From contig CAJOJQ010000020.1 of the NCBI GenBank assembly GCA_905234985.1, forward strand, positions 1 through 64,000: a stretch of DNA of 64,000 bases, in the 5' to 3' direction. This DNA comes from an uncultured Christensenellaceae bacterium (GTDB lineage: Bacteria; Bacillota; Clostridia; Christensenellales; Aristaeellaceae). The notes under the pieces were generated by a model. That model did no database searches. It saw only the letters and a list, made by a program, of their open reading frames with translations, and was not told the DNA's origin. Positions 48,594 through 64,000 of the stretch are shown here, piece by piece; within the stretch, counting starts at the first letter, position 1; each line of letters begins with the position of its first letter. The translations under genes were made by a program, and so were the position numbers.

Positions 48594-49844
48594 ATGAAAA
48601 AAATCCTGATCGCGCTGATTCTGCTGGTGCTGTGTCTCGGTCACGCTTCGGCGGAAAACTCCGGGTTACTGGGGAAGCCTTTTCCCGATTTTCAGGCGAC
48701 GGACACACAGGGAAACGCCTTTTCCCTGTCCGAAGCGCTGAAGGATCACGAAGCGGCGCTCATCAACATCTGGGCCACCTGGTGCCCGCCCTGTGAAAAG
48801 GAATTTCCGTTCCTGAACGAAGCCTATGAAAAATACGGCGACAAAGTGGCTTTCATCGCCCTGTCCTGCGAAAAATCGGACACACTGGAAGTGATTGAGG
48901 CGTTCCGTCAGGCCCACGGCCTCACCCTGCCCATGGGCCAGGATAAGGCCGGGCTGTACCAGTATATCCGGCCCAGCGGCATCCCCGTCACGCTGATCGT
49001 GGACCGCTTCGGAAACGTGGGTTTCCTGCATATCGGCAGCTTTATGAGCGCCGGGGAAGTGTCCCGCGTCATCGAACCCTTCCTGGGGGACGGCTATACG
49101 GAAACTGCCGTGCTGACCCAAATCCCCAAGGAAACCGCCACCGCCGCCTTCCCCGTGTCCGCCGCCCGGGCGATCCACGTGGAGAACGAGAACGTCCGGG
49201 GCGTCCTGTTCCGGGCGGAGGGCGTGCCCAATCCCATCCAGGCCTATGTGATCGAAGGGGACGTGGCGCATCTGCGCTTTGAAATCGCCGCCTCCGACAG
49301 CCCCGCGGATATGTACTACTATAATCTGGATCAGGTTCTCCAGCTGCACACCCTGCTGGACGCGCGGCGGAACGCTTATGTATTCGATCAGCCCCTGCCC
49401 CAAGCGGAGGCGGAAGTACACGTGGTATACGCCTGCCTGGTGGACCCGGAAAGGGACACATCGGACGATATGGCGGAGGTCTATCTGATTCCCGGCGAAC
49501 AGTACATCGAGGAAGTGGCCGAGGCCATGCGCTCCTGGGGCTATGAGCTTACCTGGGAATTCGGGGACGCTCCGCGCGTCCAAACCGCGCCGAAGGCTTA
49601 TGTCCTGCACGTGATGGATCAGAACGGCGACCCCGTTGCGGAGGCGGCGGTCAATTTCTGCAACGATACGGCCTGCGTCCTCCTGGAATCCGACGAAAAC
49701 GGCGACGTGACCTTCACCGACGTGCCGGACGTGTATCACGTCCAATTGGTAGAGGTGCCGGAGGGCTACAGCTTTGACGAGGATTTTGAACTGTATACCA
49801 GCGAGACCTACGGCGAATGGATCCTGCGGGTCAAAAAAGACTGA
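48594..49844 (+). CDS. Exported TlpA-like thioredoxin with a C-terminal Cna-B-like domain
   Basis: 416 aa with a signal peptide (about residues 1-20, ending HASA). Residues 25-165 form a TlpA/ResA-type thioredoxin with active site WCPPC (C64, C67) and cis-proline block GIPVTLIVD near 125. Residues 170-330 are unassigned; 335-416 look like a Cna-B-type carboxypeptidase-regulatory domain (YVLHVMDQNGDPVAEAAVNF). It probably handles disulfides outside the membrane and is first in an operon with a CXXC membrane protein and a ferredoxin-thioredoxin fusion. Confidence 0.88.
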   Translation: MKKILIALILLVLCLGHASAENSGLLGKPFPDFQATDTQGNAFSLSEALKDHEAALINIWATWCPPCEKEFPFLNEAYEKYGDKVAFIALSCEKSDTLEVIEAFRQAHGLTLPMGQDKAGLYQYIRPSGIPVTLIVDRFGNVGFLHIGSFMSAGEVSRVIEPFLGDGYTETAVLTQIPKETATAAFPVSAARAIHVENENVRGVLFRAEGVPNPIQAYVIEGDVAHLRFEIAASDSPADMYYYNLDQVLQLHTLLDARRNAYVFDQPLPQAEAEVHVVYACLVDPERDTSDDMAEVYLIPGEQYIEEVAEAMRSWGYELTWEFGDAPRVQTAPKAYVLHVMDQNGDPVAEAAVNFCNDTACVLLESDENGDVTFTDVPDVYHVQLVEVPEGYSFDEDFELYTSETYGEWILRVKKD

Positions 49845-49863
49845 TTGCTGAAAGGGAAAGACT

Positions 49864-50328
49864 GTGACACGGAGAAAAGCGTTTCTGATCGTTCAGTCCC
49901 TGTTCTGCGCGCTGGTGGCCGGACTTCTGGCCGCCGGAGCGCTTTCTCTGTATTTTGACGGGGCGGCAAAGCAGGCGGCGGGCGATTTATTTTATGCGAT
50001 GTTTACCCGGGAACGCGCCGCCGCCTGGCTGCTGCCCATCCTGCCGCTGTTCCTCTGCTCCCTGGGCCTGACCGCCGCCGGGCTGATCTTAGGCATTCGG
50101 GACGAAAACGCGGACAAGCCCGTGCGGGATGAATCTCTGCCGCGGGCGATGAGCCGCGTTCGGGAAAAAGCGGCGTCCCGGCAGGCCGACCGGAAAACCC
50201 TGATCCTGCGAACGGCGGCGCTGCTGATCGCGCTGATCCTGATTGCCGCGGGCGTGCTGAACGGGGGCCTGGAGGACGTACTCGCCAAGGGCATTGCCAT
50301 CTGTACGGAGTGTGTCGGCCTTGGATAA
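49864..50328 (+). CDS. CD1871A-type CXXC motif membrane protein
   Basis: 154 aa from the GTG at 49864. Three membrane segments (about residues 8-28, 55-77, 112-130) and the C-terminal signature ICTECVGLG, with C147 and C150, preceded by NGGLEDVLAKG. This matches the CD1871A-family C-terminus; most such proteins are shorter, so the N-terminal part is extra. The role is unknown, but the constant presence next to a NapH-like ferredoxin suggests electron transfer. Confidence 0.75.
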   Translation: MTRRKAFLIVQSLFCALVAGLLAAGALSLYFDGAAKQAAGDLFYAMFTRERAAAWLLPILPLFLCSLGLTAAGLILGIRDENADKPVRDESLPRAMSRVREKAASRQADRKTLILRTAALLIALILIAAGVLNGGLEDVLAKGIAICTECVGLG

Positions 50329-51778
50329 AACGGTGAAGAAAGAAAAAAACAGAAAACCGGCGGCCCGCAAGCTGGTGCAGCTTTATGCCGCACTGCTGTA
50401 CAACGCCCATTTGAAGGGCTTTATTGACGGCCATATCTATTCGGGCAACCTGAAAGCGCTCTGCGTGCCCGGCTTCAACTGCTATTCCTGCCCCGCCGCT
50501 GTGGGAAGCTGCCCTTTGGGCGCTTTGCAGAACGCCCTGAACGCCGCCGGGCACACCGCCCCCTGGTATGTGCTGGGCATGCTGACCCTGTTCGGCGTGA
50601 TCTTAGGCCGCACCGTCTGCGGCTGGCTCTGTCCCCTGGGCCTGATCCAGGAGCTGCTGCACAAAATCCCCACCCCCAAAATCCGCAAAAGCCGCCTGAC
50701 CCGGATGCTGTCTTACCTGAAATACGGCGTGCTGGCGGTGTTCGTCATCATCCTTCCGGTGTGGTACGGGGTGGAAAAGGGCCTCATTTTGCCCGCCTTC
50801 TGCAAATATATCTGCCCGGCGGGCACCCTGGAGGGCGCGGTGGGGCTGCTGCAAAATCCCGCCAACAGCACCTCCTTCTACCAGTTAGGCGCGCTTTTCA
50901 CCCAGAAATGGATCATCATGGTGGCTGTCGGCCTCCTTTGCGTCTTCTGTTACCGCTCCTTCTGCCGCTTTCTCTGCCCTTTGGGGGCGATTTACGGCTT
51001 CTTTAACCGCTTCGCTTTAACGGGCGTGAAGGTGGACCCCGCCCGCTGCAACAGCTGCGGCCAATGCGTGATGAAGTGCCCCATGGACGTGAAGCACGTG
51101 GGCAGGGCTGAATGCATTTCCTGCGGCCAGTGCGTGGACGCCTGCGCCCAAGGCGCGATTTCCTTCCAGTGCGGAAAAATCACCCTGAAAGGGCCGGAAA
51201 CCGGCAGGCGCGCCGATCCGGAGCCTGTGATCCGGAAGCGGCGGAAGCTGGGGCGCATTGCCTGGGCCGCCGCCCTGGCGGTGCTGGCCTTTGCCTTGGT
51301 CTGCTTCAACCTTCCGGAACCGGCGGCCGATCAGCAAAACGCCGTTTCGGCTGTTGGCACGGAAGAGGGCTGCCTGATGCCGGATTTCTCCACTGAATTG
51401 CTCAGCGGAGAAGCCTTCCGCCTGTCCGATCACCGGGGACAGGTGGTCATCGTAAATTTCTGGGGCACCACCTGCGCCCCCTGCATTGAAGAGCTGCCCT
51501 ATTATGAACAATTGAAGCAGGCCCATCCCGACGTGGAAATTCTGGCGATTCACCATCGGGCCGGAGCCAAGAAAGCCAAGGATTTCCTGGCGGACAAAGG
51601 CTGGGATCACATTGATTTTGCCCTGGACAGCAAGGAAAAGGGCCTGTTCACCCTGCTGAACGCGGCGGACGCCATGCCCCAGACCATCGTGGTGAATCCC
51701 CGGGGCGTCGTGACCTATAACGCCCAAACGCCCCTGACCTATGAAAAACTGGAAACGCTGTACAGGGAAGCGCGGTAA
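50321..51778 (+). CDS. Fusion of NapH-like membrane ferredoxin and TlpA-type thioredoxin
   Basis: 485 aa from the TTG at 50321 (GGAG 10 bases upstream), overlapping the previous gene by 8 bases. Membrane segments fill residues 75-230 with CGWLCPLG and CRFLCPLG cysteine motifs, followed by two [4Fe-4S] ferredoxin motifs (CNSCGQCVMKCP and CISCGQCVDAC, about 240-285), another membrane segment (about 312-330), and an extracytoplasmic TlpA domain with WGTTCAPC (C385, C388). Electrons could pass from the cytoplasm through the clusters to the outer thioredoxin. Confidence 0.9.
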   Translation: MDKTVKKEKNRKPAARKLVQLYAALLYNAHLKGFIDGHIYSGNLKALCVPGFNCYSCPAAVGSCPLGALQNALNAAGHTAPWYVLGMLTLFGVILGRTVCGWLCPLGLIQELLHKIPTPKIRKSRLTRMLSYLKYGVLAVFVIILPVWYGVEKGLILPAFCKYICPAGTLEGAVGLLQNPANSTSFYQLGALFTQKWIIMVAVGLLCVFCYRSFCRFLCPLGAIYGFFNRFALTGVKVDPARCNSCGQCVMKCPMDVKHVGRAECISCGQCVDACAQGAISFQCGKITLKGPETGRRADPEPVIRKRRKLGRIAWAAALAVLAFALVCFNLPEPAADQQNAVSAVGTEEGCLMPDFSTELLSGEAFRLSDHRGQVVIVNFWGTTCAPCIEELPYYEQLKQAHPDVEILAIHHRAGAKKAKDFLADKGWDHIDFALDSKEKGLFTLLNAADAMPQTIVVNPRGVVTYNAQTPLTYEKLETLYREAR

Positions 51779-53243: not shown

Positions 53244-53361
53244 GCGGACCATTCACGATGAAAGGAACGCATCTGCAAGACCGGGACTGCGGTCATGCTA
53301 TACTTGCGTCGGAACAAATGGGAAGCGAGGTGAAAATCTGTCGCAAGAGACAGAGGCGGTG

Positions 53362-56250
53362 ATGATTGATAACAGGAAAGCGCTGCAAAAAGGTACGATT
53401 TTGAATTTTCCGGGCGTCTCCTGCGAAGTTGGAGAAGAAATCGGACGCGGCTCCAATTCGCTGGTGTATCAGGGAAGCTATCGGGACGCCCACGATCAGG
53501 AGCAGGTTCATCACGTTCTGATAAAAGAATTGTTTCCGCTGCACATGCAGGGAAAAATTTTCCGGCTGGAAGACAATTCGATTTGTGTTGAACCGGAGGG
53601 ACAGGACACATTTGAAATGCACCGGGAAAGCTTTGAAACCGGCAACAAAGTTCACTTAAAGCTGCTGGAAGCATGTCCCGATCAAATTGGCGCGAATCTG
53701 AATACCTTTTCTTTGAATGGAACGCTGTATTCCGTGCTTGGGGTGAGCGGCGGGCAAAGTTTAGCCCAAATGCAAACCACGCCGGTTCGTTCGCTTCGTT
53801 CCATCGCCAAAAGAGCGCTGAGCATTCTGGAGGCTCTGGAAACTTTTCACGCGAACGGCCTGGCCCATTTGGATATCGCCCCGGATAATATTCTGCTGCT
53901 CGGAAGCGGCGAGCGGGAAAGAGCGCTGCTCATTGATTATAACAGCACCATGACGATCAGCGCCGCACGGCGGAAGGACGCCGTCATTTTCAGTATCAAG
54001 CAGGGTTACACGGCCCCGGAAATCCGCGCCGGACAGGCGGACGAGATCAGCTTTGCGTCGGATATGTATTCCGTTACCGCAGTGCTTTACTGGATGATCA
54101 CGGGAAGCGCCTTATCCCTGTTTCAGATGGTTCGGCCCGCGCCTCCGGACGTTTCCGGCGCCCCCTGCATGCGGGATGAGCCCGAAACGGTAAAAGTATG
54201 GGTTCAGGAAATCCTGCGGCGGGGCCTGCAAAGCCTGCCCTCCCGCAGATATCAGACCACGTTTGACATGCGCCGCGATTTAGAGGAGCTGATCGACCGT
54301 ATCGACGGCGTCGGGATCACCCATTGGGCGCTTTGGGAGGCCGGACGGAAGCGGGTGGCAAGGATGGTGCGGGACAATCCCTCCCTGTCCTTTATCCGCG
54401 ATTCGGCCAATCTGTATCCTTCCATGATATCGGACGGAACGGAGCTGCTTCCGGCGGAAGACTGCATCCGAAAGTTGCCGGGGAGCTGCATGCTGGTCGC
54501 CGGAGGCGGCATGGGAAAAACCACGTCCCTGCTGCGCCTCGTTTTTTCCGGCAATAAAACCTACCGGCCCAAAAGCCCCGCCGTGATGTATTTATCTTTG
54601 TACGGATGGCAGCCGGGGGACGGATCGTTCATTATCAACAGCATTCTGGATGAACTGCACTATCACGCGGAAACGCACACGTATGACGACGCGCGCAAAG
54701 TTTTATATGAATTGCTTGATAAGCCGATGATCCTGCGGGACGGCGAAGCGCCCGTGCTGCTGCTGCTGCTGGACGGACTGAACGAGATCACAGGCGATCC
54801 CAAACCGCTTCTTGACGAAATCCGGCGGCTGTCCGCCATGCGGGGCGTCCGGCTGGCGGTAGCGAGCCGCGTGGGGGAAGAATCGCTCCCCTTTCCGCAG
54901 CTTCATCTGGCGGAGCTGTCCGACGGCATCGTGCAGGACGTCCTTTCCAAGGAAGGCCTGCTGCTGCCGGAAGCCGACGGCATGAAAGCGCTGCTCCGCA
55001 CACCCTTGATGCTGTCCATGTATGTAAAAGCCGGACAATTGGGCGGAAAGCAGGTCCGGGTCAATACGGCGGATGAGCTACTGAAAACCTATCTGCTGGC
55101 GTTGAAAGAAAAAGCCGTGCAGGATTTATCCGAGCAGACGAACAGGCGGTGGCAGGTGGAGGCCGCGCTGGAATTCGCGCTTCCGGCAATCGCCGCGGAA
55201 ATACACAGGGAACGGCGCGGCTTGAAAGACGCGGAGCTGCTGCCCGTCATTGCAAAATGCTTTCGGATCCTGAGCGGCCCCCTGTCCAGACGCTTTTTCC
55301 CGCAGTGGATCGGGCGCACCGCGGCGATTCGCGGCGGCGCCAGAAACGCCGAGGAATGGTACGGGCAGATCGTCCATGATATTTTATGGAAGCAGCTGGG
55401 CCTTGTCTCGCGGGATGAACAGGGAAAATATGTGGTGTTCCACCAGGTCGTCGAAGAATACCTGCTCACCCTGTCCAAAGCGAATGACCGGAGGATTCAA
55501 CGATACCATTGGCTCCGCGGCACGATCGCCGCGATCTGCAGCTGTATTACGGTCGGCCTTTTGATTTATTTCATCGTGCCTTCACCACTTCCGCCCTATG
55601 ATGAAACATACGCTGATAATATTATGGAGCGGATATTGAAAGCTTACGTCGTTGCCGGATATCAATACGAAAGCCTTTCCAGTTTGGCAGATGCCGCCAT
55701 CGAATCACCCGAGGCTTTTGAAACGCAATATTTCTATTATCAGGGTGATGTGAAGAAAAAATACGTGGATCCGGAAAACGCTTTAGTAGATTTGTCTGAT
55801 ATGCTTTCATCAGGAGAAGCCATGCCGTGGTCAAATCTGCCGATGGATGAGGAGGCATGCATAAAGCTTTTGACGCTTTCGTATGACAGGTGGGAAGAAG
55901 ATTATCAGAAGTATGTTTCTGTTTTAGAGTATGTCATGACGGATGATCTTGCGTATCGGTATTATGGGAAGATCTATCCTGACCTTTTTTCCCAGCTACT
56001 GGAAATCGATGCGGATATCGCCGCCGAATTGTATCAGATCGTCTGCGAACCCCATCTGAAAGGAAAATACGCGGATCACTCGGTTACAGCCGAATCCTTC
56101 CGCAGCCTGTATGCAAGCGTATCGAAACAGAATGGACACATGGATCAGCAAAAAGGCGATCTGTCGAGATTGGAGTCATTGGAAAAGGATAGGATCGATC
56201 TGATTACGAAGATCAATACATCCGGCGCTTTATATGGTTACGGAACATGA
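53362..56250 (+). CDS. Membrane Ser/Thr protein kinase fused to a STAND/NACHT-like NTPase
   Basis: 962 aa. Residues 20-310 are a Hanks-type kinase: glycine loop IGRGSNSLVY (27-36), ATP lysine K55, catalytic HLDIAPDN (H169, D171, N176), Mg-binding D192 in LIDYN where DFG is usual, and TAPE (217-220). Residues 370-710 are a P-loop NTPase with Walker A GGGMGKTT (381-388) and Walker B LLLLLDGLNE (466-475), as in NACHT/STAND ATPases. A membrane helix (about 719-740) precedes a C-terminal domain of about 220 residues outside. The start is the ATG at 53362 (a GTG lies at 53359); ribosome binding site weak. The stop is just before the next gene. Confidence 0.85.
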   Translation: MIDNRKALQKGTILNFPGVSCEVGEEIGRGSNSLVYQGSYRDAHDQEQVHHVLIKELFPLHMQGKIFRLEDNSICVEPEGQDTFEMHRESFETGNKVHLKLLEACPDQIGANLNTFSLNGTLYSVLGVSGGQSLAQMQTTPVRSLRSIAKRALSILEALETFHANGLAHLDIAPDNILLLGSGERERALLIDYNSTMTISAARRKDAVIFSIKQGYTAPEIRAGQADEISFASDMYSVTAVLYWMITGSALSLFQMVRPAPPDVSGAPCMRDEPETVKVWVQEILRRGLQSLPSRRYQTTFDMRRDLEELIDRIDGVGITHWALWEAGRKRVARMVRDNPSLSFIRDSANLYPSMISDGTELLPAEDCIRKLPGSCMLVAGGGMGKTTSLLRLVFSGNKTYRPKSPAVMYLSLYGWQPGDGSFIINSILDELHYHAETHTYDDARKVLYELLDKPMILRDGEAPVLLLLLDGLNEITGDPKPLLDEIRRLSAMRGVRLAVASRVGEESLPFPQLHLAELSDGIVQDVLSKEGLLLPEADGMKALLRTPLMLSMYVKAGQLGGKQVRVNTADELLKTYLLALKEKAVQDLSEQTNRRWQVEAALEFALPAIAAEIHRERRGLKDAELLPVIAKCFRILSGPLSRRFFPQWIGRTAAIRGGARNAEEWYGQIVHDILWKQLGLVSRDEQGKYVVFHQVVEEYLLTLSKANDRRIQRYHWLRGTIAAICSCITVGLLIYFIVPSPLPPYDETYADNIMERILKAYVVAGYQYESLSSLADAAIESPEAFETQYFYYQGDVKKKYVDPENALVDLSDMLSSGEAMPWSNLPMDEEACIKLLTLSYDRWEEDYQKYVSVLEYVMTDDLAYRYYGKIYPDLFSQLLEIDADIAAELYQIVCEPHLKGKYADHSVTAESFRSLYASVSKQNGHMDQQKGDLSRLESLEKDRIDLITKINTSGALYGYGT

Positions 56251-57537: not shown

Positions 57538-58884
57538 ATGTTTCAGGATCATGTGTTCTACCGTTCCTACATGGGCGCGGCATATATTCTGAATCAGAAT
57601 ACAGGACGCTCCTACTATTACGAGGATACAGCGGCGCTGATCCTGGAGCTGCTCGCCGGCGGAGAAACGGATGAACAGCGCATCGCGGAGCGCGTGGCGC
57701 GGGAATACGACGTTCCTTCCCTGGAGGAAGTGCGGAAGGATACGGCTGACTTCATCCGCCAGCTTCGGGAGGAGGGCGTTTTGCCTCCGCTTCAGGACGC
57801 GGCTCCCGCGAAATTGCCGGAGGACTATCTGACGGATTATTGCTGGGCACACAACAAGCTGGAGGCGGTTTCGCTGGAGCTGACGTATCGCTGCAACGAG
57901 CGCTGCGTGCATTGCTATACCTGCGACGCGCAAAAGGAAGCGGGCCGTGAATTGACCGCCGCGGAATACTTCCGGATCATGGACGAGCTGCGGGATTTCC
58001 AGGTGAACGAGTTGATCCTCAGCGGCGGAGAAATCGGGGTTCGCAAGGACCTGTCCGAAATCTATCAATACGCCATTCAGAAAGGCTTCCTCGTCACGCT
58101 GATGACCAATGGCACCCTGTTTACGCCGGAACAGATGGAGATGTTTTATCGGAACCCGCCCAAATTGGTCTACGTCAGCTTTTACGGAGGCTCCCCGCAA
58201 ACCCATGACCGGGTGACGGGCGTGCCGGGTTCCTTCGCCAAATCGCTGGATACCGTCATGCGGCTCAAATGCGCGGGCGTCGCCGTGGGCCTGAAAACCG
58301 TGGCGATGACCCCCACCATAGAGGATTACCCGAATATCGTAAGGCTGGCGAAAAGGTTAGGCGTGGGGCTGGGCACAGGCATGTACCTCACCTGCGGCAA
58401 CAACGGAAGCACCGAGCCTGCCCAATACAGGCTGACAGAACTCCGGGATTACGAGAAAGTGGTGGAGGCAAAGCAGCAATACCCGAAAGCCTGCACGCCC
58501 TATCGCGTTCGCAATGTGAACGGCCCGATTTGCGAGGCGGGCGCGATGGTCTGCACCATCAATCCATACGGCGATTACTATGTGTGTACTTCTCTCCCCG
58601 TGCCTTGCGGAAACGTGCGGGAAACGTCCGTTTCGGAATTCTGGAACGGCAACGCTTTCCTGAAAAAAATCCGCGCCCTGCGCTTTACCGATACCGGCTG
58701 CGCGGACTGCGCGTATAAAAACGAATGCGTATATTGCGTCGGCGCGAATTATGTGGAAACGGGAAGCCTGTTCGCGGTGCAGGAAGGCCACTGCCTGGCT
58801 GCTAAGGCATATCATCAATATTTCCAGCGGACGGAAAACGAACGCATTCCCGGTCAGCTTCAGCAGGGCTTGGATCATTGCTGA
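57538..58884 (+). CDS. Radical SAM-SPASM peptide maturase with PqqD-like N-terminus (enzyme 1)
   Basis: 448 aa. Residues 1-85 look like a PqqD-type peptide-recognition domain (YILNQNTGRSYYYEDTAALI). The radical SAM [4Fe-4S] motif is C119-x3-C123-x2-C126 (CNERCVHC), followed by ILSGGEIGVR near 160. The SPASM/twitch region runs from GPICEAGAMVCTINPYGDYY (about residue 330) through CADCAYKNECVYC to the C-terminus, giving auxiliary clusters. Such enzymes install thioether or C-C crosslinks in RiPP precursors. The two small peptides encoded right after it are the obvious substrates. Confidence 0.93.
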   Translation: MFQDHVFYRSYMGAAYILNQNTGRSYYYEDTAALILELLAGGETDEQRIAERVAREYDVPSLEEVRKDTADFIRQLREEGVLPPLQDAAPAKLPEDYLTDYCWAHNKLEAVSLELTYRCNERCVHCYTCDAQKEAGRELTAAEYFRIMDELRDFQVNELILSGGEIGVRKDLSEIYQYAIQKGFLVTLMTNGTLFTPEQMEMFYRNPPKLVYVSFYGGSPQTHDRVTGVPGSFAKSLDTVMRLKCAGVAVGLKTVAMTPTIEDYPNIVRLAKRLGVGLGTGMYLTCGNNGSTEPAQYRLTELRDYEKVVEAKQQYPKACTPYRVRNVNGPICEAGAMVCTINPYGDYYVCTSLPVPCGNVRETSVSEFWNGNAFLKKIRALRFTDTGCADCAYKNECVYCVGANYVETGSLFAVQEGHCLAAKAYHQYFQRTENERIPGQLQQGLDHC

Positions 58885-58953
58885 AACCATTTGCAATGAT
58901 CGCCCCCACGGTATGATAGAATTGCATCGGCAGAGAGAAAGGAGGTGTGACGG

Positions 58954-59064
58954 ATGAAGAAAACGTATAAAAAGCCCGCCGTCATCGCAGCGGGCAAGTA
59001 CTCGGCCAACATGAGTACCTGCGGCAAGCAAGTGAACAATGTGAACTCCGTCTGCGGTCATTGA
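58954..59064 (+). CDS. Small two-cysteine RiPP precursor peptide 1
   Basis: 36 aa with a strong ribosome binding site (AAAGGAGGTG) and ATG at 58954. The leader half reads KKTYKKPAVIAAG, with the Y-x2-P-x5-G pattern used by peptide-recognition domains of maturases. The core is MSTCGKQVNNVNSVCGH, with C23 and C34 ten residues apart and a -CGH end. It is 70 bases after maturase 1 and followed by a terminator-like hairpin. Small genes like this are easily missed; the near copy at 59291 strongly supports it. Confidence 0.9.
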   Translation: MKKTYKKPAVIAAGKYSANMSTCGKQVNNVNSVCGH

Positions 59065-59072
59065 CAGACCGT

Positions 59073-59115
59073 TCGGAGGGGACGAAGAGGGCGCGTTCCA
59101 TTTTGTCCCCTCCGA
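59073..59115 (+). terminator. Hairpin after precursor peptide 1 (terminator or attenuator)
   Basis: TCGGAGGGGAC (59073-59083) pairs perfectly with GTCCCCTCCGA (59105-59115) across a 21-base loop. It starts 9 bases after the peptide stop, which would raise peptide mRNA over downstream genes. The rest of the gap to 59290 holds no credible gene, but its last 12 bases (AGAGAAAGGAGG) repeat the sequence before peptide 1. Confidence 0.65.
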
Positions 59116-59290
59116 TGGAGAATAGCGGCATACGGTTTTTCTCCCAGACAGGATCTCTGCCCGAAAACAGCGTCGCCGTTCTGTACGGCGTTTCCCCTCT
59201 CTTCAGAATCTGCCGCACTGCCAAAATCGCGAACAATTGCCGCGGGCGGCGGCAGACCGTTTTTAGCCCAGAGAAAGGAGGAGAAATATA

Positions 59291-59404
59291 ATGGAAAAGA
59301 AGGCTTACAAGAAACCCGCCGTGATCGCGAAGGGCAACTATTCCGCCGTCATGAGTACTTGCGGCAGCCAGGTGAGCCATGTGAACTCCAATTGTGGACA
59401 CTGA
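59291..59404 (+). CDS. Small two-cysteine RiPP precursor peptide 2
   Basis: 37 aa, ATG at 59291 after AAAGGAGGAG. Same plan as peptide 1: leader KKAYKKPAVIAKG and core MSTCGSQVSHVNSNCGH with C24 and C35. Identities cover the recognition-type leader, STCGxQVxxVNSxCGH and the C-terminal Gly-His; differences fall at the x positions. It is a duplicate of the neighbouring peptide and a second substrate for the flanking maturases. Confidence 0.9.
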   Translation: MEKKAYKKPAVIAKGNYSAVMSTCGSQVSHVNSNCGH

Positions 59405-59406
59405 TC

Positions 59407-59531
59407 GGCCGCCGCCGGGGGAGCGAAGAGGAAACGCGTCCTCTTCGCTCCGGCGGGGAAAAGCGGCGATCCCTTGCTTCCGCCGATAAAACCGGCGGCG
59501 AGGGAAAAACATCCGCTGATCGCCGCTTTTC
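59407..59531 (+). terminator. Two nested strong hairpins after precursor peptide 2
   Basis: First stem: CCGCCGG...GAGCGAAGAGGA (about 59409-59431) with TCCTCTTCGCTCCGGCGG. Second: AGCGGCGATC (about 59461-59471) with GATCGCCGCT (about 59518-59529), followed by TTTT, containing an inner CCGCCG/CGGCGG stem. Together they should stop most transcription after the peptide gene and leave low read-through into maturase 2. Confidence 0.7.
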
Positions 59532-59575
59532 ATTTCCGCGCTCATTCTCCGTATCGACAGAAAGAGGGTTCTCTC

Positions 59576-60910
59576 ATGCGTTTAATGCCAGGCACTTATG
59601 TCAACCTTTACGGCGATCAGGCTTATGTGATGCAGCTCCGCACCGGATACTCTTATCTGTTCAATGAAACAGTATTTGATCTGCTGACAATCGTAAAAGA
59701 CAGGCCGGGAATCACGCTGGACGCGCTGTGTGGCCAGCTGCTGAAGACCTACGATGTGGAGGATAAGGACAGCTTTTACGCCGATATCGCGGATTGCGTT
59801 CGCGATTTAGCGGCCAAAAATATCATTGACGACAAGCTTCCCCGCCCCGCGGCGTCTTCGCTGACGCCGGAAGATTATATAAACAGGCTCTGCATAGAAA
59901 ACCATATCCTGCAAAGCGTCACCATCGAACTGACCTATCGGTGCAACGAGCGCTGCGCCCATTGCTATGTGGCGGACAGTGAAAAATACGCGGCCGGAGA
60001 ACTGACCACGCGGGAAGTGTTCGACCTGCTGGATCAGCTTCGCGAAATGAACGTACTCAATCTCACGTTCACCGGCGGTGAGGTGGCTTTGCGCCCGGAT
60101 TTTCTGGATATCCTTCGCTACGCGGACAAGTCTGGCTTTGTGATCAGCATTTTCACAAACGGCATTGGCTTTACCGACGATATGCTGGATGAAATCGCGG
60201 CGCTGCGTCCCCGTTCCGTTTCGTTCAGCCTCTATTCGGGGCTGGCGGAGGAACACGAAGCCATTACGCGGGTGCCGGGTTCCTTTAACCGAACGCTGTA
60301 CGCCATGATGCGGCTCAAGTGTGCGGGCGTCATGGTGAATGTGAAAACCCCGGTCATGAAAACCGCCCTGGGCGGCTTTGAAAAACTGCATACGCTGTGT
60401 AAGCAGCTGGGCTTTTCCCATCAGGTCTCCTTCCTGATCTGCTCCACGAACAAGGGATGCACCTCCCCCACCCTGCTTCGGATCGGAGACAGGGAAACGT
60501 ATAAGCGCCTGATGCGCATTTGCGCGGACGATGAGAACGTCTCGGAGCCGAACCCCAGAAACGTGGATGAACCCATCTGCGGCGCAGGCGGATGCTGCCT
60601 GAGCGTGAATCCTTACGGCGATGTGTTCCCCTGCAACGGTTATTATGTGAAGCTGGGCAGCGTGAGGGAAACCAGCGTTCAGGCGATCTGGGAGGGGGAC
60701 AAGGTAAAAGAGCTGTCCCAGATCAAGTTTTCCAGCCTGAGCGGGAAATGCACAGCGTGCCAATATAAGGACGACTGCCTGTATTGCCCCGGCGCGATGC
60801 TGGCCGAAACAGGGGACATCCGAACGCCGATCAATGAAACCTGCCTGATCGCCCAGGCCGCCTATGAATCACGCACAGAAGGGAGAAACGTGGCCGCTCA
60901 TGAACAATAA
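59576..60910 (+). CDS. Radical SAM-SPASM peptide maturase with PqqD-like N-terminus (enzyme 2)
   Basis: 444 aa from the ATG at 59576 (AGAGGG upstream). PqqD-like residues 1-90 (VNLYGDQAYVMQLRTGYSYL), radical SAM motif C123-x3-C127-x2-C130 (CNERCAHC), LTFTGGEVALRPDF near 163, and SPASM cysteines from EPICGAGGCCLSVNPYGDVF through CTACQYKDDCLYCPGAM. It is a diverged paralogue of enzyme 1 and either modifies the second peptide or adds a second modification. Its stop overlaps the start of the first M48-like gene. Confidence 0.93.
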   Translation: MRLMPGTYVNLYGDQAYVMQLRTGYSYLFNETVFDLLTIVKDRPGITLDALCGQLLKTYDVEDKDSFYADIADCVRDLAAKNIIDDKLPRPAASSLTPEDYINRLCIENHILQSVTIELTYRCNERCAHCYVADSEKYAAGELTTREVFDLLDQLREMNVLNLTFTGGEVALRPDFLDILRYADKSGFVISIFTNGIGFTDDMLDEIAALRPRSVSFSLYSGLAEEHEAITRVPGSFNRTLYAMMRLKCAGVMVNVKTPVMKTALGGFEKLHTLCKQLGFSHQVSFLICSTNKGCTSPTLLRIGDRETYKRLMRICADDENVSEPNPRNVDEPICGAGGCCLSVNPYGDVFPCNGYYVKLGSVRETSVQAIWEGDKVKELSQIKFSSLSGKCTACQYKDDCLYCPGAMLAETGDIRTPINETCLIAQAAYESRTEGRNVAAHEQ

Positions 60911-61724
60911 AATCATATTATCGGGCCTGAAAGCGGAAGATTATCTTCATCCAAAGGATTACGCGTTCGTCCATGGCGACGCGGAAGACAGTTCTCTGGT
61001 TTCCAAGGGATTATCCCTGCTTTCCAACGCGAGCATTGTGTTTCTTCGGCGGATCACAGAAGGCCGGTATGTGGAAATCACGGAAAAAGCGAATCCTTAT
61101 CTGATCGGTGTGCTGAAAAACACCTGCGCGATCCTGGACGTGCCCTATATGCCTCGCCTGTTCGTCCGCCATGAACGCTGCACAAGCACCACGGTGGGGG
61201 GCGAAGGCGCGAACGCGGCGCAGATCCTGATGCCGGATTATATTCTCCAGGAATACGATGAGGATATGCTGTATTATGTGCTGGGAAATGCCGTGGCCAT
61301 GCTGAAGGCCGGGCATGTAAAGCTGTCCACCGTGTGTTCTGTTATGGTGGACACACCCGTCACGAAGCCTTTTCAGCTCGCGCTGGAAGCCTGCATGCGG
61401 GCTGCCGACCTGTCCTCTGACCGCGGCGGACTGCTTGCCTGCCAATCCTATTCCGCCGCGGCAAGGTGTGTGATGTCGGAAGCCGGAATGCCGCCGCGGG
61501 AAATGAGGGGCATGAACGACGAGGAGATCGAAGCCGCCGCCGAAGCGTTCATGATCGGGGCGGATGACGTTTGCCCCAACTGGATGACCACCCTGGCGGG
61601 CATGTGGAAGAAGCTGAACTGGTCCACGACGCCGCCCGTGGAGCGGCTGCGGGAATTAAAGGCATGGTACGACAATGGGTATGACGCCCTCATGCGCAGA
61701 TGGGAAAGGGGGACAAGCCTGTGA
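60900..61724 (+). CDS. M48-like pseudo-peptidase 1 (zinc site lost)
   Basis: 274 aa from the ATG at 60900, overlapping maturase 2 by 11 bases. The stretch ILMPDYILQEYDEDMLYYVL then GNAVAMLKAGH (129-139) lines up with the M48 core (strand, then GHELGHIxxGH), but the zinc histidines and glutamate are N130, A131 and M134. The later E-x-x-AD block is LSSDRGGLLA. There is no membrane segment, so this is a soluble, probably catalytically dead M48 relative. It is followed by two more. Confidence 0.75.
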   Translation: MNNKIILSGLKAEDYLHPKDYAFVHGDAEDSSLVSKGLSLLSNASIVFLRRITEGRYVEITEKANPYLIGVLKNTCAILDVPYMPRLFVRHERCTSTTVGGEGANAAQILMPDYILQEYDEDMLYYVLGNAVAMLKAGHVKLSTVCSVMVDTPVTKPFQLALEACMRAADLSSDRGGLLACQSYSAAARCVMSEAGMPPREMRGMNDEEIEAAAEAFMIGADDVCPNWMTTLAGMWKKLNWSTTPPVERLRELKAWYDNGYDALMRRWERGTSL

Positions 61725-62494
61725 ACCGGCCCGTCATTGAAGTAGACGATTATATGCATCCTGAGGAACGCGCCGTCACAAACAGGATCGTGGCGCTGAC
61801 GCAGATGGACAGCTGGGCGGAAAGCGGCATGGGCGAAGGCCTGGACGATACCAACCAGTACATCTGCTCCGCTTCATATTATGCTGTTCCTTCGCGCCAT
61901 ATGATCGCCCGGGAGGCGGAAGCCGCGGCGGAGCTGTTCGGGCTGGGCCAGCTGCCCAAGCTGTATATCGCGCGGAAATTTTCATATGATCTCCAGCTCA
62001 GCGGCTATCATGAGCCAACGGTGATCGTTCCTTCGGCGCTGGTGGACGAGCATGATGAAGGCATGATCCGCTGCCGGATCTGCGGCGCCCTGGCAGGGGT
62101 CAAGGCGGGCCATCACCAATTGGAGTATCTGCTCTGGATCATTGAAAACATGTCCGGAAGCATCCCCATTCCCTTTGCGAGCCAGGCGGCGTGTACGCTG
62201 CTGTATGAATGGAAGCGCGCCATACGGTATTCCCAGGATCGGGCGGTTTACCTGGCGACAGGAAATTTGGAGGAAGCGCTGCGCAATATTCTGTACGGCA
62301 CGGTCCCGCAGGAAACGCTCAAGCGCTTCACCTTTGGCTCAAACGGCACTTTCGATCCCCAGGTTCGGCGCTACAGCAAAGGACTCGTTGAAAAAACAGT
62401 GGGCGCGTTTGCCAGCCTGATGCAGGATTATGCTTATTTGCCAGAACGCTACAGCCGATTGATCCAGTTTGCGGAAGGGAGGAGCGGGCAATGA
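61721..62494 (+). CDS. M48-like pseudo-peptidase 2 (zinc site lost)
   Basis: 257 aa from the GTG at 61721, chosen because GGAAAGGGGG precedes it and GTGA overlaps the previous stop. VIVPSALVDEHDEGMIRCRI then CGALAGVKAGH (121-131) is the M48 core with HExxH replaced by G122, A123 and G126; only the final GH survives. The Asp-Arg block is YSQDRAVYLA. Both termini overlap neighbouring genes, so the three M48-like proteins are coupled. Confidence 0.75.
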   Translation: MNRPVIEVDDYMHPEERAVTNRIVALTQMDSWAESGMGEGLDDTNQYICSASYYAVPSRHMIAREAEAAAELFGLGQLPKLYIARKFSYDLQLSGYHEPTVIVPSALVDEHDEGMIRCRICGALAGVKAGHHQLEYLLWIIENMSGSIPIPFASQAACTLLYEWKRAIRYSQDRAVYLATGNLEEALRNILYGTVPQETLKRFTFGSNGTFDPQVRRYSKGLVEKTVGAFASLMQDYAYLPERYSRLIQFAEGRSGQ

Positions 62495-64000
62495 AAATTG
62501 ATTTCGGCAAGCTGTTTGACGCGGAAATGGTTCACCCGCTGGAGTATGAATCCGCCAAAGCCTGTCAATCCGTTGCTGTTTACGACTGGCTTGCAAAGCA
62601 GGCTGCCCAGATCAAGAAGAATCTGACGGATCTGCCGGAAGCGGCGGCGCGCTGGTTCCCTGTGAATCAATTCACCTCTCCTCGCCTGCACGGACTGTAT
62701 ATGCTGGCGCTGAAACGGCTGAACTGTGCGGAGGAATATCCGCTTTTCCTGAAAAATGGTTATGATTTGACCGCCAAAGCGCTGGGTTCCCGCAGCGAAG
62801 GGCATATGATCGTAATGAACGACGCTTGCGCGGAGGAACTGAACGACGGAGAGCTGCTGGCGCTCCTGGGGCAGCAGATAGGGCATATTCGGGGGGATCA
62901 CATTCAGCAGCTGGAGCTTCTGGACCTTTTGGAAAGCTCCGCCCAATCCATTCCCATGATGGGCACCATTATAGGAAAGAAATTATGGTCCTATTTCGCG
63001 GATTGGCTCGTCGCCTCCCAATATACGGCGGACCGCGCCGCCGTGTTTGCCGCCCAAAGCGTGTACGCGGTGGAAAGCCTGCTGCTTCGGCAGATCGGTC
63101 TTGATCCCGCTTCTCCGGAGGCCAAGGCGCTGGAGCAGCAGCCCGTGAAGCAGGCGAAGGGCAAATCAGGCGTGTTCTTTATCAAAAGCTGGCATGAAAT
63201 GCCCGCCTTCGGCAATGTAGAGCGCATCCAGGAGGTGCGGGCGTGGGTGCGTTCCGGCGAAATGAAAAAGGATCATCCGCAGGTGTATTACCAGTGCCGG
63301 GTGGAGGAAAACGATCCGGCCTTCAGCCCGGAGGACGAAAGCGTCCTGCGGCTCCACGCTTCGGCAATGGAAGGCGACGCAAAGGCGGCGGTGAAGCTGG
63401 CGGAGCTGTATGTCCAGGGAAAAGAAGCGCTTCCCGTCTGCACCGCGGCGGCGGCCTGCCTGTTTCAGTATGCCGCGTGCCAGGGCGATCCGCTGGCGAT
63501 GCGTTACCTGATCGGCTTCATGCAGCATGGGATCGAAAACATGGAAAACGACGAAAGACGCATCGAGCAGCTTTTCAGAGCCGCTTATTCCCGCAAGCTG
63601 GCGACGTCGCGTCCCAATCCTTACGGTCCGCTGCCGGTAAATGAAAGCCTGCGGGCGCTCGTGGGGAATTTGGAGCAAAAATACGGCGTTTCTTCCCCTG
63701 ACGTCGAGGATCTGCAGCGGGCAAAGGACGCATTCTGGATCCCCCAGGATGACGACGTTTATTCCTGCTCCGTCTGCACGAACAGCGACGGCTGGCTGTT
63801 CGGCCTCGCCGCCTCCTCCACGGGTCTGTACGGACGGACGGATGAAAAATCTCTGCCGTTTATGATAAAATGGGAAGAATTTGAGGCCCGCGACCTGTAC
63901 AGCCGGGAAACCGACGATGGCTGGTGGATCTTTTCCGGGCCGGCGCGGCTCATCCAAAAACCAAAGGATATGCATGGAACGATGGCCGAGCTGCTGATCC
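62491..64000 (+). CDS. M48-like pseudo-peptidase 3 with Sel1-like repeats, 3' end outside window
   Basis: At least 503 aa from the ATG at 62491 (GGGAGGAG upstream, ATGA overlap). ELLALLGQQIGHIRGDH (121-137) is the M48 active-site helix with HExxH changed to QQIGH, so one histidine (H132) remains; the third ligand is lost (QYTADRAA). After about residue 285 come Sel1/TPR-like helices (AKAAVKLAELYVQGKEAL), then near 430-503 a beta-rich segment (GWLFGLAASSTGLYGRTD) of unknown class. The stop is not in the window. Confidence 0.75.
   Translation, partial: MKIDFGKLFDAEMVHPLEYESAKACQSVAVYDWLAKQAAQIKKNLTDLPEAAARWFPVNQFTSPRLHGLYMLALKRLNCAEEYPLFLKNGYDLTAKALGSRSEGHMIVMNDACAEELNDGELLALLGQQIGHIRGDHIQQLELLDLLESSAQSIPMMGTIIGKKLWSYFADWLVASQYTADRAAVFAAQSVYAVESLLLRQIGLDPASPEAKALEQQPVKQAKGKSGVFFIKSWHEMPAFGNVERIQEVRAWVRSGEMKKDHPQVYYQCRVEENDPAFSPEDESVLRLHASAMEGDAKAAVKLAELYVQGKEALPVCTAAAACLFQYAACQGDPLAMRYLIGFMQHGIENMENDERRIEQLFRAAYSRKLATSRPNPYGPLPVNESLRALVGNLEQKYGVSSPDVEDLQRAKDAFWIPQDDDVYSCSVCTNSDGWLFGLAASSTGLYGRTDEKSLPFMIKWEEFEARDLYSRETDDGWWIFSGPARLIQKPKDMHGTMAELLI

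Follow-up and report, generated by a model that had tools for sequence, protein, structure and literature searches.

The window analysed here is a stretch of 64,000 nucleotides (nt) from an uncultured Christensenellaceae bacterium (assembly GCA_905234985.1, contig CAJOJQ010000020.1, positions 1 to 64,000). Its positions 57538-60910 carry, consecutively and all on the + strand, the gene of a radical S-adenosylmethionine (SAM) enzyme, rSAM1, two small peptide genes and the gene of a second such enzyme, rSAM2. That this locus is a radical SAM cassette for a ribosomally synthesized and post-translationally modified peptide (RiPP) is well supported. We predict from the sequences, with a probability of about 0.5, that both maturases place cysteine thioethers on each peptide and that one of these thioethers closes a ring between Cys34 and Asn31. 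The RiPP family is unmatched in the libraries searched and resembles the known NxxC and thuricin CD systems in part. Judged from titles and the beginnings of abstracts, no paper was recognised as dealing with this cassette, the subscription literature being mostly outside the scope of the search.

An earlier note on this DNA had described two peptides of 36-37 amino acids (aa) between paralogous radical SAM enzymes with PqqD-like and SPASM domains, a description that was confirmed by translation, by Pfam, by the relatedness of the two enzymes and by the excess of synonymous change in the peptide genes. rSAM1 matches PqqD (3.6e-13), Radical_SAM (8.9e-21) and SPASM (1.3e-8) and is the second match to rSAM2 in its own genome (36% identity, 2.6e-86). 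rSAM2, whose start agrees with that in the relatives, has Radical_SAM (2.5e-20) and SPASM (1.6e-9) above the cut-off and PqqD slightly under it (3.2e-4, 21.4 bits against 23.4). The claim that each enzyme starts with a PqqD-like leader-binding domain, also called a RiPP recognition element, thus stands by Pfam for rSAM1, and for rSAM2 it leans on the predicted model (predicted local distance difference test score, pLDDT, 82; nine sequences), in which residues 7-80 form three strands and three helices and would fit such a domain, as expected. All nine aligned enzymes keep the three radical SAM cysteines (CxxxCxxC) and seven SPASM cysteines without change. The solved structures nearest to the rSAM2 model by Foldseek are SuiB (presumably a Lys-Trp crosslinking enzyme), 5wgg (which we take to be CteB), SkfB, TigE and PqqE, and since the query template modelling scores are 0.49-0.58 and the root-mean-square deviations are large (6-16 Å), this likeness is only at the level of domains.

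Both window peptides contain Cys-x10-Cys-Gly-His exactly as noted earlier, and their genes are preceded by purine-rich ribosome sites, aaaggagg for peptide 1 and aaaggaggag for peptide 2. The monoisotopic masses calculated for the two peptides, Met included, are 3826.91 and 3923.89 Da; one predicted link would lower each by 2.016 Da and two by 4.031 Da. With peptide 2 brought into register by the removal of one codon, the proportion of synonymous differences (pS) between the twin genes is 0.68 and that of non-synonymous differences (pN) is 0.14; in the six pairs formed by four peptide genes (the two in the window and one in each of two relatives, L037 and L038), pS is 0.27-0.68 and pN 0.01-0.16. 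Since synonymous change far exceeds amino-acid change, the small open reading frames (ORFs) are, on the evidence of their sequences, real genes under purifying selection. Across the four versions, peptide 1 is invariant at 25 of its 36 positions. Neither window peptide matches any Pfam or NCBIfam model; the Asn-x-x-Cys spacing of the core is known from NxxcA (PMC8326336).

The close relatives come from two Clostridia assemblies, one of sheep omasum (L037) and RUG13460 (L038); the genomes G104 and G082 hold the same contigs and are counted once with them. The gene order in both is rSAM1, a single peptide, rSAM2. Because they keep both enzymes with one peptide, the two maturases are constant and the two peptides are not, and a paired design with one maturase per peptide is not supported. 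A set of two paralogous radical SAM enzymes and two peptides is, besides, already known from thuricin CD (PMC12093266). The core motif STCGxQVxxVNSxCGH describes the window peptides, but in the peptides of both relatives Leu replaces Gln and a third Cys is present. The hairpins that follow each peptide gene in the window (Table 1) could serve to protect or to limit the message; those after the peptides of L037 and L038 are not clearly stronger than shuffles (z -1.29 and -0.29), and by eye a T run follows them. In a pattern search of genome contigs, 3 of 32 stretches encoded a relative; in the third (L039) the maturase has 23% identity, and scanning its short ORFs for the motif revealed no such peptide.

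When 396 order-wide genomes were searched with the rSAM2 alignment at 1e-60, four matched, the own genome and three (G486, G393 and G418) that each belong to another family. A peptide of 38, 40 or 36 aa, respectively (MSFVKPEMLFEDIYSQSMANCCTKMSQAFCGITYRTNS, MKKFEKPEMLFTDGYIYSMGSCGCTRSTEAFCGITHRMGN and MFVPKLLAESEYVHSLACNCSKRTDYQCGVMYRQGN), directly follows the maturase in these three, and no second maturase was called beside the first. A precursor gene is therefore conserved beside the modifying enzyme in the window, in L037 and L038 and in three of three order-wide relatives. The remote peptides share with those of the window K-P (P-K in the third), Tyr, Met or Leu, and C-G; their core is C-x7-C-G, with seven more residues after it rather than a single His. 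The -CGH end, taken earlier to be new, is thus specific to the branch of the window, its CG being common to the three remote relatives and its terminal His absent from them. The minimal cassettes in three other families (L057, L058 and L059) consist of an HTH_3 protein, a PqqD-radical SAM-SPASM maturase and a peptide of 36-40 aa; the small HTH_3 protein adjoins the maturase in two of them and lies near it in the third.

The occurrence of the cassette within the family is sporadic. A peptide search of 200 family genomes gave matches at E<=1 in 31 and strong ones in 3 (the own genome, G104 and G082), and in genus g10 the cassette is present in 2 of 6 genomes. The weak matches (E 0.018 to 1, 31 places) were rejected after 22 of the 31 had been read: 10 of the 22 were one recurring EQYxxPTxxASG frame and at none of the 22 loci did a long ORF pass a crude radical SAM motif test. 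The rSAM1 alignment found only the own genome among 391 class genomes at 1e-60, a threshold perhaps too strict for solo relatives, as did the rSAM2 alignment among 398 phylum genomes, and the families of G418, G486 and G393 (141, 43 and 40 genomes) together with 180 class genomes yielded no match beyond those already known; these genome sets overlap. Nothing is dated from the tree that was built because none of its eight inner branches reaches the strict support mark. A viral origin was considered and rejected: tblastn with rSAM2 matched 10 plasmid records (24-31% identity) and 5 phage records (24-26%) only, and no relative came up when viral contigs were scanned with two alignments of the maturases, that of the peptides and the AAA protein.

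In the mechanism that we propose, K-K-x-Y-K-K-P-A-V-I-A-x-G would be the probable leader, bound by the N-terminal PqqD-like domains, and the radical SAM and SPASM iron-sulphur clusters would join core cysteines to other residues as thioethers. Most likely each peptide would be modified by both rSAM1 and rSAM2, working jointly or one after the other, and two enzymes on one peptide could either form a complex like TrnC/TrnD, which acts on both peptides of thuricin CD (PMC12093266), or serve one Cys each. The last Cys would most likely be linked to the beta-carbon of the Asn at position -3 (Cys34-Asn31 in peptide 1), an NxxC-type ranthionine, and the first (Cys23) would receive a second link. The ring is predicted because of the residues at -3, the spacing in NxxcA, which has a beta-thioether from Cys23 to Asn20 (PMC8326336), and the precedent of PapB, which joins Cys to the beta-carbon of Asp or to the corresponding gamma-carbon of Glu (PMC9413430). 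At position -3 from the last Cys the window-type peptides have N and the three remote ones Q, E and D, so that N, D, E or Q stands there in six of six peptide rows. Shuffling of the cores reproduces this pattern, which was spotted post hoc and in four lineages only, in 0.23% of cases at that offset and in 1.6% at any of seven offsets.

This post hoc character weighs against the thioether prediction, and so do several other points. The remote peptides carry further Cys beside their C-x7-C core, so their chemistry may differ, and one of the two maturases may perform a different modification. For both enzymes heme b synthase is the top NCBIfam model, with 131 and 143 bits against a cut-off of 500, and among the models listed for rSAM1 and rSAM2 none attains its cut-off. 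The sactipeptide maturases StsB (116 of 625 bits) and AlbA (76 of 850) fall far short of it for rSAM2 and outscore the ranthipeptide maturase PapB (53 of 340); for rSAM1, StsB has 92 bits and AlbA 70, and PapB is absent from the best 25 models. These scores suit a sactipeptide, with the cysteines bound to alpha-carbons by two sactisynthases, perhaps complexed like TrnC/TrnD of thuricin CD, whose layout of twin maturases and twin peptides (PMC12093266) is found here as well; SkfB is, moreover, the best Protein Data Bank sequence match for rSAM1 and for rSAM2. Apart from ruminococcin C and streptosactin, however, the known sactipeptides have N-terminal donors and C-terminal acceptors (PMC8326336), whereas the last Cys here precedes Gly-His only. 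The conserved N/D/Q/E at -3 suggests, moreover, a beta or gamma link, and we regard alpha-carbon linkage as possible but doubtful. Still less probable is a product with carbon-carbon or ether bonds, some other crosslink that is not a thioether, or epimerisation, its Cys remaining free for a metal or a disulfide: SuiB is the top Foldseek match, WgkB, a Lys-Trp type maturase, reaches 95 bits on rSAM2, above PapB, and Cys and His of the CGH end could act as metal ligands, but the peptides lack Trp, Cys-Gly is retained in six of six peptide rows, and the type of crosslink cannot be told from the fold, given the similar scores of SuiB, 5wgg and SkfB.

The setting of this peptide cassette in an operon with AAA+ and M48-like genes is its strangest part. 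After rSAM2 come three M48-like proteins (a, b and c), TM108, TM151a, TM151b, a 114-aa protein, TM128 and an AAA+ ATPase, in a 12-gene unit that is kept in three assemblies, the counterparts in both relative contigs standing in the same order with 45-82% identity. The 'TM' names refer to hydrophobic N-termini read by eye, by which TM108, TM151a, TM151b and TM128 look like four small membrane-bound proteins. The three successive M48-like proteins (window 60900-64000 and L047 6492-8030), the last with Sel1 repeats, are conserved in two other assemblies; the absence of HExxH refers to the three proteins of the window. Their assignment is loose, the HtpX match of protein a being far below the NCBIfam cut-off, protein b being M48-like by weak likeness to a and c alone, with no family match of its own, and protein c matching Sel1 and, below the cut-off, PF01435 (0.0015), with QQIGH at the expected HExxH site. 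The predicted model of protein c (pLDDT 40) was left unused. Protein c is found at high score in exactly 3 of the 200 family genomes, the three that have the peptide; two weaker matches (G150 and G169) were viewed as ORF lists only. The AAA+ ATPase (L047 10218-11555; PF00004, 9.1e-26; nearest PADLOC model IetA, 2.1e-25) closes the unit. In the G104 contig the AAA gene is followed by a PRK/uridine-kinase-like P-loop protein (L049 11861-12604), and a similar ORF is present in the G082 contig.

Table 1. Coordinates of the cassette and of neighbouring features in the window.
Feature	Position	Strand	Evidence
Protein kinase with weak NACHT match, outside the conserved unit	53359..56250	+	Pkinase 3.2e-14; NACHT 0.011, below cut-off
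rSAM1, maturase with PqqD-like leader-binding domain, radical SAM and SPASM	57538 (ATG; alternative TTG 57535)..58884	+	Pfam; 74% identity in both relatives
Precursor peptide 1, 36 aa, MKKTYKKPAVIAAGKYSANMSTCGKQVNNVNSVCGH	58954..59064	+	Translation; counterparts in L037 and L038; pS far above pN
Strong RNA hairpin after peptide 1, not followed by a T run	59069..59118	+	-33.4 kcal/mol, z -5.35
Precursor peptide 2, 37 aa, MEKKAYKKPAVIAKGNYSAVMSTCGSQVSHVNSNCGH	59291..59404	+	Translation; no counterpart in the two relatives
Strong RNA hairpin after peptide 2	59408..59467	+	-41.7 kcal/mol, z -4.06
rSAM2, second maturase, paralogue of rSAM1	59576 (ATG)..60910	+	Pfam, model, folds; 72% identity in relatives
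M48-like protein a, HExxH absent on reading, shares 11 nt with the end of rSAM2	60900..61724	+	HtpX model 0.001; 74-76% in relatives
M48-like protein b, without HExxH, 25 nt overlap with a	61700..62494	+	64% in relatives
M48-like protein c, Sel1 repeats, 512 aa	62491..64000, on to contig position 64029	+	63% in relatives

The conserved unit ends upstream of rSAM1, because the proteins that precede it in the window (one of 404 aa, the kinase and one of 415 aa) have no match in either relative contig at 1e-3. In their place the relative contigs hold a GTPase-like protein, with weak Pfam matches below the cut-off, and the window contains no counterpart of the one in L037 (best E 0.071). The kinase/NACHT protein overlaps by 4 nt the gene of the 415-aa protein, which is probably secreted, and at 48594-51778 there are two AhpC-TSA/redoxin proteins, one of them also with 4Fe-4S domains. 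Further upstream, a tripartite ATP-independent periplasmic (TRAP) transporter set and a Na+/H+ antiporter look unrelated to the cassette. A reading as a defence system was considered and not adopted; PADLOC gave matches to individual models, namely kinase (PD-T4-6, MkoA, mad6), viperin, IetA/TRIP13 AAA and mad8 ones. Between 52029 and contig position 67554 (the contig ends at 69232), Pfam finds neither a transporter nor a regulator among 16 genes, several of which match no family.

Two uses of the product may be considered. It could be a bacteriocin or signal that is exported, with the genes for exporter, protease and immunity located in other parts of the genome; this is compatible with any reading of the chemistry, and we put it forward tentatively as a fair contender. 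Its sporadic occurrence, with strong matches in three of the family genomes, the make-up of the remote cassettes with their small HTH_3 regulator, and the basic character of the peptides (computed isoelectric points 9.8 and 9.5) all favour export, whereas the lack of a transporter among the Pfam matches just described, the overlap of rSAM2 with the next gene and the 12-gene order kept in both relatives do not. Because the cassette is tightly coupled to the M48-like and AAA+ genes, an internal role is possible instead: the product may be used together with the AAA+/M48-like proteins of its own operon rather than pass through a dedicated exporter. The crosslinked peptide would then work inside an AAA+/pseudo-M48 machine that is perhaps bound to the membrane, as a component, signal or cofactor, and would not be secreted. 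This is the weakest step of our proposal and we think it unlikely; an exported product with distant export genes is at least as likely.

If the predictions hold, the known RiPP families would gain one with two maturases for one peptide, and NxxC-type thioethers outside streptococci could be sought by a testable rule, namely that Asn, Asp, Gln or Glu stands at -3 from the last Cys. If the internal role were true as well, radical SAM peptides would be used inside an AAA+ system and not as a secreted antibiotic.

Among named systems, StsB, the streptosactin maturase, is the top thioether-peptide maturase among the NCBIfam matches listed for both enzymes, but its scores are far from its cut-off and the match spans the radical SAM and SPASM part only. 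Freyrasin (PapA/PapB) and the SCIFF ranthipeptides (six Cys in about forty-five residues) share the radical SAM and SPASM layout, with 5wgg among the nearest folds, and differ in their peptides: those of the window lack the repeated CX3D and have two Cys, the other four rows having three, and rSAM2 is distant from PapB by score. Thuricin CD (TrnA/TrnB, TrnC/TrnD) likewise has two small peptides and two radical SAM enzymes per cluster, but each thuricin peptide carries three thioethers (PMC12093266) against two Cys in the window peptides, and L037 and L038 keep their two enzymes with one peptide. The streptococcal ranthipeptide (RaS-RiPP) system NxxcA/NxxcB, likened here by description, differs from the cassette in that the latter has two maturases and no regulator among the Pfam matches of its 16 genes; alike in the two is an Asn three residues before a core Cys, joined to it in NxxcA by a radical SAM enzyme (PMC8326336; PMC13361665) and here, as we predict, by the paralogous maturases.

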